The position numbers and the translations under genes were made by a program. Below, piece after piece: positions 20,454 through 44,932 of a stretch of DNA of 64,000 nucleotides (position 1 is its first letter; each line of letters begins with the position of its first letter). Source of the DNA: Alloalcanivorax gelatiniphagus (lineage in GTDB: Bacteria > Pseudomonadota > Gammaproteobacteria > Pseudomonadales > Alcanivoracaceae); contig NZ_VCQT01000046.1 in the NCBI RefSeq assembly GCF_005938655.1, positions 124,001-188,000 of the forward strand, given 5' to 3'. The notes under the pieces are model-generated. The model was given only the letters and a program-made list of their open reading frames with translations, had not been told where the DNA came from and did not search any database.

Positions 20454-20624
20454 CAGTTGAAAGTTTAAAGTTAAAAGTTGAAACGCGGGGCCGCACCGGG
20501 GGTACTGACAGCAGCGGTGCCCGCGCTCATAAGGAGAGCCAGCACCGATGGGCCGCCCGGCCGTAGGCCGCGGGAAGGCCAGGCGGCGGCGACCTTTCAA
20601 CTTTTAACTTTAAACTTTCAACTG
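20454..20624. repeat. Heptad-repeat element with exact 30-bp inverted ends
   Basis: The arms at 20454-20483 and 20595-20624 are perfect reverse complements built from GTTGAAA/GTTTAAA/GTTAAAA units. They flank a GC-rich 111-bp core with palindromic stretches. This accounts for most of the gene-free interval 20378-20734. Confidence 0.88.
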
Positions 20625-20734: not shown

Positions 20735-22102
20735 ATGGGCATCCGCAAAAAACTCTTTGTGACTTTTCTGGCTACCTTTCTGGTGCTGATTCTGGCCGCC
20801 GGCGGGTTCTTCTTTTTTGCCTTCGAGAAGAGTCTGAGCAAGTACATCGACGAACGTCAGCAGGCCCAGGTGGAGCGGCTCGCCGAGCATCTCGGCGTGC
20901 TCTACACCCAGCGTGGCAGCTGGCATTTCCTGCTCGACGAGCCACGGCTGCTGACCCGGCTTTACTGGCTGGCCGGTGACCGGGAGGCGCGGCTGGAGCG
21001 CGACGGCGGCCCGCGCCGTGACCGGGACGCGCCGCGCCATCTGACCCTGCTGAGCCCGGACAAGCGCCCCCTGCTGGGTCCGCCACCGCCTTCCCGCCTT
21101 AGCGAGCAGGTGCCGATCCGGGTGGGCGACACCCTGGTGGGCTGGCTCGCCTACCCCGACCAGGAGGCGATCCGCGACAAGCTGGACCAGCGCTTCCAGG
21201 AGCGGCTACTGCGCTTTATGTCGACCATGGCGCTGGTGGGGCTGGCCCTGTCGCTGCTGGTGTCCTGGCTGCTGGCCCGGCACCTGGTGGCGCCGGTCAC
21301 CGCGCTGACCCGCCATACCCGGCGGCTGCGCGAAGGCGAGTACGAGGCGCGCCTTACCAGCGCCCGCCGCGACGAGATCGGCCAGCTGATCCATCACGTC
21401 AACGGTCTCGGCGAGCGCCTGGATCAGGGCCGGCGCGCCCGGCAGCGCTGGTTCTCGGACATCGCCCATGAACTGCGCACGCCCCTGTCGGTGTTGCAGG
21501 GTGAACTGGAAGCCATGGTGGACGGCGTGCGCCCGCTCAATCAGGACGGCATCGCCGCCCTGGAATCCCAGGTGCGCCAGCTCACCCATCTGGTCAATGA
21601 TCTGCACGATCTGGCCCTGGCCGATGCCGGCAACCTGCGCTATCACTTCCGCCAGGTGGACCTGGATACGCTCTGCGAGGATGCCCTGGACGCGCTGCGC
21701 CCGGCCCTGGGCCGGCGCCGGGTCACGGTGCACACCACCCTGGCGCCGGCGCGGCTGGGCGGCGATCCGGTGCGCCTGCGGCAACTGCTGGACAATCTGC
21801 TGCAGAACAGTCTCAAGTACACCGACGAGGGCGGCCAGCTACGCCTGGACTTGGCCGCCGATGGCGATCAATGGTGCCTGACCCTGGACGACAGTGCCCC
21901 GGGGGTGCCCGACGAGGCGCTGCCGAAACTGTTCGACCACCTGTACCGGGTGGAGAGCTCGCGCAACCGGGAGACCGGCGGCGCCGGCCTGGGCCTGGCC
22001 ATCGGCCAGCGCATCGTCGAGGCCCACGGCGGCACCATGAGCGCGGATCACAGCCCGCTGGGCGGCCTGCGCATCACCGTGCGCCTGCCGCGCGGTTCGT
22101 AG
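20735..22102 (+). CDS. Sensor histidine kinase (BaeS/CpxA-like)
   Basis: Two-component membrane sensor of 455 residues. TM1 is about 8-29, followed by a periplasmic sensor of about 130 residues rich in Arg/Pro, and TM2 is about 161-181. The HAMP domain (about 182-235) precedes the DHp box FSDIAHELRTPLS with phospho-acceptor H245. The ATPase core follows, with NLLQNSLKYT (N box) and GGAGLGLAI (G box). Its response regulator and a Spy-like protein lie downstream, so an envelope-stress role like BaeSR or CpxAR is likely. The TAG stop is the first TAG inside a REP-like palindrome. Confidence 0.92.
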   Translation: MGIRKKLFVTFLATFLVLILAAGGFFFFAFEKSLSKYIDERQQAQVERLAEHLGVLYTQRGSWHFLLDEPRLLTRLYWLAGDREARLERDGGPRRDRDAPRHLTLLSPDKRPLLGPPPPSRLSEQVPIRVGDTLVGWLAYPDQEAIRDKLDQRFQERLLRFMSTMALVGLALSLLVSWLLARHLVAPVTALTRHTRRLREGEYEARLTSARRDEIGQLIHHVNGLGERLDQGRRARQRWFSDIAHELRTPLSVLQGELEAMVDGVRPLNQDGIAALESQVRQLTHLVNDLHDLALADAGNLRYHFRQVDLDTLCEDALDALRPALGRRRVTVHTTLAPARLGGDPVRLRQLLDNLLQNSLKYTDEGGQLRLDLAADGDQWCLTLDDSAPGVPDEALPKLFDHLYRVESSRNRETGGAGLGLAIGQRIVEAHGGTMSADHSPLGGLRITVRLPRGS

Positions 22103-22165
22103 GAGCGGCTTCAGCCGCGATTGGCCGGGGCCGACCACATCAATCGCGGCTGAAGCCGCTCCTAC
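22099..22165. repeat. REPIN-like pair between kinase and regulator genes
   Basis: Units at 22099-22121 and 22143-22165 (GCGGCT flavour) face each other across 21 bp. They lie inside what should be a kinase-regulator operon and end 57 bp before the regulator start. Confidence 0.92.
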
Positions 22166-23557: not shown

Positions 23558-25303
23558 TTACAACAAAGCCCGCCGCATATCGCTCAGCAGCTGACTCAGA
23601 TAGCTGGTGAAGCGGGCCGCGTCGGCGCCGTCGATGACCCGGTGATCGTAGGACAACGACAACGGCAGGGTCAGGCGCGGCTGGAACGCCTTGCCGTCCC
23701 ACACCGGTTTGGTGTCGGAGCGGCTGACACCCAGGATCGCCACCTCGGGCCAGTTGACGATGGGGGTGAAGGCGGTGCCGCCAATGCCACCCAGCGACGA
23801 GATGCTGAAGGTGGCGCCCTTCATGTCCGCCGGTGACAGCTTGCGGTCCCGGGCCTTGCCGGCCAGCTCGCCCATTTCCAGGGCGATTTCCTTAAGCCCT
23901 TTCTTGTCGGCGTCGCGGATCACCGGCACCACCAGACCATTGGGCGTATCCACGGCGATGCCGATGTGCACGTAGTCCTTCATGATCAGGGCTTCGCCGC
24001 TCACTTCCAGGGAACTGTTGAAGCGCGGAAATTCCCTTAGCGCGTTGGCGCAGGCCTTGACCAGGAACGCCAGCATGGTGAGTTTGACGCCTTCTTTTTC
24101 CAGGGCCTTGTTCTGGCTCTTGCGGAAGGCTTCCAGCTCGGTGATGTCCGCTTCGTCGAACTGGGTCACATGGGGAATGGTGACCCAGCTGCGGTGCAGG
24201 TTCCTGGCCGCCACCTTGCGCAGCTTGTTGAGCTCCTGACGTTCCACCGGGCCGAACTCGCTGAAGTCGATCTCCGGCAGGTCCGGCGCCCCGCCACCGG
24301 CGGCGACGGGCGGATTTTCCAGCCGCTGCTTGATCAGGGCGTGCACGTCTTCCTTGAGAATGCGTTCCTTGGGCCCGCTGGGCGCCACGTCCGCCAGATC
24401 GATGCCGGTTTCCCGGGCCAGCTTGCGCACCGCCGGGCCGGCGTGCACCGAGGCGGACGGTTTGCCCTGGGAGCGCTCGGGGGTTTCCGGGGGAACGTTC
24501 TGACGGCCGGCTTCCGACGGTTTCTCGTCCAGATCGGACTTCCGGGAGCCGCTGGATTTGGCGGCGCCGTCTTGTTTGGAGGCCGCTTTTTCCGATGCCT
24601 CTTTCTTCGCGGCCGGTTTCTCCGACGCGCCTTTATCGGACGATTTCTCTTCGCCAGCCGACCCGTCGCTCTGGCCGCCGCCGGCGGTTTCCAGTTCCAG
24701 CAGGTCGGTGCCGGTGCCGATCTTGTCGCCCACCTTCACCAGCAGCTTCTTCACCGTACCCGCTTCCGGACAGGGCACTTCCAGGGACGCCTTGTCGGAC
24801 TCGATCACCAGAATGGTCTGCTCGGCCTCGACGCTGTCGCCCTCGGCCACGTTGATCTCGATGATCTCCGCTTCGTCGATATCGCCCAGGTCCGGTGCCG
24901 GCACCGTGCGGGTGCCGCCTTTGGGGGCCGGGGCTGCGTCGGCGCTGTCGTTGTCGGCGCTGTCGTTTTCGCGACTGAAGTCGCTCCTACCGGCCTGCTC
25001 ATCGGCCACGGACTCTTCTGTAGGAGCGGCTTCAGCCGCGATATCCGCCTCGCCGCCGTCCTCACCGGCCACGTCCAGCTCCAGGAGCGGGTCGCCCTCC
25101 TTCACCTGGTCACCGGCTTTCACTTTCAGTTCCAGGACCGTGCCCGCCTTGGGACAGGGTACTTCCAGCGACGCCTTGTCCGATTCCAGCACCACGATGG
25201 TGTCTTCGGCTTCGACGCTGTCGCCTTTCTTAACGGATACCTCGATAACGTCAACAGGATCACTGCTGCCGATATCGGGTACCCGGATGGTTTCCTTGCT
25301 CAC
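23558..25303 (-). CDS. aceF: Pyruvate dehydrogenase E2, dihydrolipoamide acetyltransferase
   Basis: Core acetyltransferase of the pyruvate dehydrogenase complex, 581 residues. Two lipoyl domains carry lipoylation lysines in ESDKASLEVP (K43 and K171). The E1/E3-binding domain is AVRKLARETGIDL...ILKEDVHALI. The catalytic domain ends with SYDHRVIDGADAARF. The linker between the lipoyl domains is odd: residues about 88-95 (IAAEAAPT) and 105-112 (GRSDFSRE) are translated from two REP-like palindromes lying in frame in the gene. It follows aceE by 20 nt. The lpd gene is not in the window. Confidence 0.96.
   Translation of the reverse strand: MSKETIRVPDIGSSDPVDVIEVSVKKGDSVEAEDTIVVLESDKASLEVPCPKAGTVLELKVKAGDQVKEGDPLLELDVAGEDGGEADIAAEAAPTEESVADEQAGRSDFSRENDSADNDSADAAPAPKGGTRTVPAPDLGDIDEAEIIEINVAEGDSVEAEQTILVIESDKASLEVPCPEAGTVKKLLVKVGDKIGTGTDLLELETAGGGQSDGSAGEEKSSDKGASEKPAAKKEASEKAASKQDGAAKSSGSRKSDLDEKPSEAGRQNVPPETPERSQGKPSASVHAGPAVRKLARETGIDLADVAPSGPKERILKEDVHALIKQRLENPPVAAGGGAPDLPEIDFSEFGPVERQELNKLRKVAARNLHRSWVTIPHVTQFDEADITELEAFRKSQNKALEKEGVKLTMLAFLVKACANALREFPRFNSSLEVSGEALIMKDYVHIGIAVDTPNGLVVPVIRDADKKGLKEIALEMGELAGKARDRKLSPADMKGATFSISSLGGIGGTAFTPIVNWPEVAILGVSRSDTKPVWDGKAFQPRLTLPLSLSYDHRVIDGADAARFTSYLSQLLSDMRRALL
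24968..25042. repeat. REP-like pair inside the aceF coding sequence
   Basis: Units at 24968-24990 (GCGACT flavour) and 25020-25042 (GCGGCT flavour) face each other across 29 bp, wholly within the lipoyl-domain linker. This is the only pair in the window with mixed flavours. Both are read without stop codons in the aceF frame. Confidence 0.92.
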
Positions 25304-29696: not shown

Positions 29697-29946
29697 GGGT
29701 GGCAAGCGGCAAGCTGCAAGCGCCGGGCAGCCCCCGGCGCAGTTGAAAGTTGAAAGTTGAAAGTTGAAAGTTGAAAGTTGAAAGTTGAAAGTTGAAAGTT
29801 GAAAGTTGAAAGTTGAAAGTTGAAACGCGGCATGGGTTTGGTGGGGCGGCTAGGGTGTGCCCCGCGTTCACCGGGCTACAAGCTACAAGCAGACCTTCCG
29901 GGTCGGCTCTTTTAACTTTTAACTTTCAACTTTTTCAACTTTCAAC
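29697..29946. repeat. Heptad-repeat element between DUF1631 gene and ampD
   Basis: GGCAAGC-type heptads (about 29700-29720), a GC-rich stem, the perfect 12-copy array, a GC-rich core, CTACAAG heptads (29877-29890) and TTTCAAC/TTTTAAC units in opposite sense (29909-29946). The last unit supplies the stop codon of the DUF1631 gene. Confidence 0.85.
29742..29825 (+). repeat. Perfect (GTTGAAA)12 tandem array
   Basis: Twelve exact 7-bp units with no interruptions, about 60 bp upstream of the ampD start. A perfect array of this length implies recent expansion or ongoing slippage. Confidence 0.97.
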
Positions 29947-44871: not shown

Positions 44872-44932
44872 TCGCGGTTGAAGCCGCTCCTACGGTAAGG
44901 CGGCGACCTGTAGGAGCGGTTTCAACCGCGAT
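44871..44932. repeat. REPIN-like pair between yacG and the Nudix gene
   Basis: Units at 44871-44893 and 44910-44932. Both carry GCGGTT/AACCGC in the stem, a matched change in both copies compared with GCGGCT. They lie between convergent genes. Confidence 0.9.

Follow-up and report, generated by a model that had tools for sequence, protein, structure and literature searches.

The aceF gene of the genome studied (G000), which is that of an Alloalcanivorax, carries a head-to-head REP dimer in frame within the segment encoding the linker between two lipoyl domains. The dimer belongs to the high-copy REP family of the same genome. Most probably it was inserted into the linker with the frame left open, was tolerated, and has since been subject to drift and in-frame deletion. 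The features concerned are as follows; coordinates refer to the whole 64,000-nt stretch of DNA that was analysed (the window) unless a contig is given.

23558..25303, minus strand: aceF, dihydrolipoyllysine-residue acetyltransferase (E2p), 581 amino acids; identified by ORF, TIGR01348 and Pfam domains
24920..25066, minus strand: linker joining lipoyl domains 1 and 2 (residues 80-128), predicted to be disordered; the entire REP dimer falls within it; AlphaFold2 pLDDT
24968..25042, minus strand: REP dimer taken as whole codons 88-112 (25 codons), from the sequence; common to G012 (L002), absent from G011, G003, G002 and others
25020..25041, plus strand: REP unit 1 (in aceF order), GC/GC flavour, GTAGGAGCGGCTTCAGCCGCGA; pattern scan, 0 mismatches
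24969..24990, minus strand: REP unit 2 (in aceF order), AC/GT flavour, GTAGGAGCGACTTCAGTCGCGA; pattern scan, 0 mismatches
24991..25019, minus strand: 29-nt spacer between the units, encoding EESVADEQA; spacer comparison

In a profile search the aceF product matched TIGR01348 at 656.8 bits, against a cut-off of 552.1, and Pfam domains were found for two lipoyl domains, an E3-binding domain and a catalytic domain. The aceE gene lies directly upstream of this pyruvate dehydrogenase E2 subunit gene. Both REP units are 22 nt long, agree exactly with the family consensus and are arranged with their GTAG ends facing. In each, the GTAG tag is followed by a short palindrome (GTAG-GAGCGRCTTCAGYCGCGA), the stem of which is kept in both flavours. 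Unit 1 is read antisense by aceF, yielding residues 88-95 (IAAEAAPT), and unit 2 is read in sense, yielding residues 105-112 (GRSDFSRE); the peptide of the complete dimer is IAAEAAPT-EESVADEQA-GRSDFSRE (residues 88-112). Of the three sense frames of a REP unit one is closed by TAG, and of the three antisense frames one is closed by TGA. Both units in aceF are read in open frames, and the ORF translation passes through the dimer without a stop. Coding potential was positive on either side of the dimer, and a conserved lipoyl domain (the first, residues 5-76 by Pfam) lies upstream, indicating that the gene start is not misassigned. The first-pass annotation had placed a REP pair in frame within the lipoyl linker at this same interval, and it was correct on each of these points. 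The AlphaFold2 pLDDT was approximately 31-40 in residues 80-128, and near 32 over most of them, compared with 83-92 in the lipoyl domains. In a linker predicted to be disordered extra residues should be tolerated, and the dimer would encode about 25 ordinary linker residues.

To place the aceF units in their family, the REP pattern was run against G000, where it matched 1,066 times; the reversed-pattern control gave no matches. The resemblance of the aceF units to REPs is therefore not due to chance. When thirteen Alloalcanivorax genomes (G000-G012) were compared, only five proved to have the family, with 1,053 matches in G000, 332 in G012, 249 in G011, 206 in G002 and 41 in G003; the remaining eight have 0-1 matches. 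The following transposase gene was found in G000.

G000:C9, between REPs 1336-1392 and 1999-2061: REP-associated tyrosine transposase gene (L295), 158 amino acids; NF047646

The match to NF047646 scored 125 bits (cut-off 80). Dimers of the same REP family lie on both sides of the transposase gene in G000, G012 and G002, and a transposase with such flanking dimers is the usual REPIN/RAYT anatomy. Copies 75% identical to L295 are present in G012 and G002; no match to it was found in G011, despite the 249 REPs there. Bertels and Rainey (2011, PMC3116915) describe REPINs as inverted REP doublets that constitute a mobile unit, occur in hundreds of copies and are mostly extragenic, the RAYT gene being accompanied by REPs of its own. 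The Alloalcanivorax family shares with this system its inverted doublets, high copy number, mostly extragenic location and a transposase flanked by the same REPs. The aceF copy departs from typical REPINs in lying within an enzyme gene and in having a spacer longer than that of most dimers of the family.

The frequency of REPs inside genes was surveyed in 2.39 Mb of the 4.2 Mb genome (57%), using genes called by a simple Markov model. This DNA, about 83% of which is coding, contained 603 REPs in 271 clusters. Only three of the 271 were truly gene-internal, with coding signal on both sides, and all three are in frame: the aceF dimer and the two listed here.

G000:C32:136171-139818, REP at contig 138529-138550: urea carboxylase (L263) with a single in-frame REP unit encoding SRLKSLL
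G000:C20:243811-245388, REPs at contig 244639-244691: membrane protein without a Pfam match (L279), with an in-frame REP dimer, SRLKSLLQEHGRSDFSRD

Gene-internal sites are thus strongly depleted, and so low a number in DNA that is mostly coding fits survival at tolerated sites only. The earlier view that these repeats are normally intergenic is upheld by these counts, copies within genes being rare here, but in-gene copies are known in other bacteria (PMC3733652). When decayed in-gene copies were sought with as many as 4 mismatches allowed, the matches obtained were all of the kind expected by chance. The gene finder also placed 27 other REPs in ORFs. One of these belonged to the membrane-protein dimer; the others, situated no more than about 200 nt from the called start and with little or no upstream coding signal, were set aside collectively as presumed start miscalls.

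The REP in urea carboxylase lies in an interdomain linker, between PxpC-like and PxpB-like domains. It is common to G011 and G012, and absent from G002, G003 and the outgroups. G002, G011 and G012 also have the membrane-protein dimer, with additional in-frame bases inside unit 1 in the latter two; G003 and the remaining genus members lack it, and comparison of G003 with G002 reveals a near-clean empty site. The aceF case suggests interdomain linkers as places within genes where such mobile palindromes can persist.

The relatives of G000 were compared at the aceF linker, leaving out G009, for which only the end of aceF was found. The nearest relative by AceF, G012 (92% identical), carries the REP insert with nearly the same spacer; its unit 1 has a 9-bp in-frame deletion and its unit 2 one substitution. 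The dimer is absent from ten genus members (G011, G003, G002, G004, G010, G001 and G005-G008), and homologues from further afield lack it too. An alignment showing relatives' linkers that lack the insert residues had been proposed as support for insertion. The ten genus members provide this, but an exact empty site could not be drawn in aceF, the linker being too variable in length and sequence; the G011 linker, which has no dimer, equals that of G000 in total length. Conversely, the same peptide with unrelated codons in distant homologues had been named as evidence against insertion. GRSDFSRE was found in no AceF homologue, distant ones included, apart from that of G012. A few E2p proteins of more distant origin (for example L030, L081, L090, L094 and L107) do contain the short Ala-rich motif AEAAP, encoded by different codons, as chance would produce in Ala/Pro-rich linkers. 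When 106 aceF homologues were screened for GTAG palindromes, only one other was found, in Legionella (L111); it lies close to the 5′ end of the stop-to-stop frame and is probably upstream of the start codon.

The best three-gene tree groups G000 with G002 and G003, and G012 with G011. The presence of the insert in G000 and G012 conflicts with this tree, and requires either repeated loss of an old insertion or recombination. In the reading that we favour, a GTAG-type REP dimer (REPIN) of the genome's high-copy family entered the codons for the disordered stretch that links the lipoyl domains, probably mobilised by the REP-associated tyrosine transposase of the genome. Entry in frame with both units open would have given AceF about 25 flexible residues and left the enzyme functional; the insert would afterwards have drifted, being lost by in-frame deletion. 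We infer that one dimer was inserted instead of two single units, and that some lineages lost it, as opposed to having exchanged it by recombination. The insert, which is carried by two sequences only (G000 and G012), may well be neutral.

The number of insertion events was considered in the light of other dimers of the family. Isolated head-to-head dimers, the commonest dimer orientation, numbered 102 in the 2.39 Mb. The 95 with intact flavours comprised 58 GC/GC, 24 AC/GT and 13 mixed dimers (14%), so that mixed dimers are below the expectation for random mixing, yet not rare. No other dimer in the window combines the two main flavours in intact form as the aceF dimer does; at 44872/44910 the paired units differ from each other, but both are decayed variants. 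The first-pass annotation had contrasted the mixed aceF pair with all others, and had taken it to suggest two insertions or relaxed selection on pairing. For intact flavours the contrast is accurate within the window, but across the surveyed 2.39 Mb mixed dimers are a minority form that recurs, and a mixed pair alone therefore does not imply two insertions; nor is relaxed pairing supported. Two independent insertions of single REPs, with native linker left between them, would nevertheless account for the minority flavour combination and for the length of the 29-nt spacer, one of the 11 longest among the 102 head-to-head dimers. The spacer peptide EESVADEQA is also acidic, as is native linker, and a single REP is present in urea carboxylase. 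When the spacer was compared with other REP spacers and with other aceF linkers, similarity scores were within those of shuffled controls. Dimers of this family, however, are most often arranged head to head, and G000 and G012 share both units and nearly the same spacer, so that no one-unit intermediate is seen. We regard two insertions as the less likely course, and insertion of a single dimer as the more probable one.

That the peptide is simply a native Ala-rich E2p linker, resembling REPs by convergence, might be argued from the AEAAP motifs encoded by other codons in other E2p proteins. This is in effect refuted by the exact match of both 22-mers to a family of 1,000 copies, and by the distribution of the peptides, since GRSDFSRE occurs elsewhere only in G012 and the other close relatives have neither.

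REPs close to stop codons can cause ribosome stalling. An mRNA hairpin within aceF had been suggested to affect ribosome flow, and the two units are predicted to pair with each other as a long stem (for a 91-nt segment, -46.9 kcal/mol and z -5.6). In a 291-nt context, however, the z score is only -2.05. The in-frame deletion in G012, the sole other carrier, destroys the stem (-27.6 kcal/mol, approximately 1.2 sd from mononucleotide shuffles), and all remaining relatives do without it. A regulatory role of the hairpin is therefore unsupported, and its retention for slowing ribosomes or controlling expression appears very improbable. It is also very unlikely that the REP family serves as a reusable source of linker peptides, whose frames SRLKSLL and GRSDFSR[DE] would recur where several Alloalcanivorax proteins are disordered or variable and would be kept near consensus, while their flanks diverge, by peptide selection or by conversion from genomic copies. 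Tests for slower evolution of REP codons than of their flanks gave mixed results, with p values of 0.33 for aceF, 0.08 to 1.0 for urea carboxylase and 0.008 to 0.48 for the membrane protein; the comparisons are non-independent and uncorrected. No support was found for a benefit of the aceF insert to the cell.

The aceF case is a rare and clear instance of a phenomenon already described, as intragenic GTAG REPs have been known since 2013. Di Nocera et al. (2013, PMC3733652) reported GTAG REPs lying entirely within ORFs in several species, over half of them being dimers or groups that encode 20-30 residues, and proposed that an insertion into a flexible linker or loop of a modular protein may be neutral. 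The aceF insert is of the same kind: a GTAG dimer within an ORF, encoding about 25 residues of a linker. The main text of that paper names no Alcanivorax, pyruvate dehydrogenase or lipoyl domains, and the aceF case differs in displaying presence, absence and decay among sister species. Rickettsia palindromic elements, in the account given there, are likewise palindromic repeats in coding sequences of unrelated proteins, but belong to another sequence family and another host, and RPE-1 is described as longer (PMC3733652). In aceF a mobile palindrome has probably become protein sequence in a central metabolic enzyme, and sister species display the insert present, decaying and absent. Annotators are reminded that 'extragenic' repeats can be coding.

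GTAG REPs often provide TAG stop codons (PMC3733652). In the 2.39 Mb surveyed, 32 of the 603 REPs overlap the 3′ end of a predicted gene; in the window, for example, the REP at 22099-22120 lies at the end of the ORF 20735-22102. Of the 32, 31 have the stop codon that the REP itself would supply, which is TAG in the 10 where the unit is in sense and TGA in the 21 where it is antisense. The window also contains a second repeat family, comprising a perfect 30-nt inverted repeat (20454-20483 and 20595-20624) and a tandem array of AAGTTGA-like units (29733-29830).
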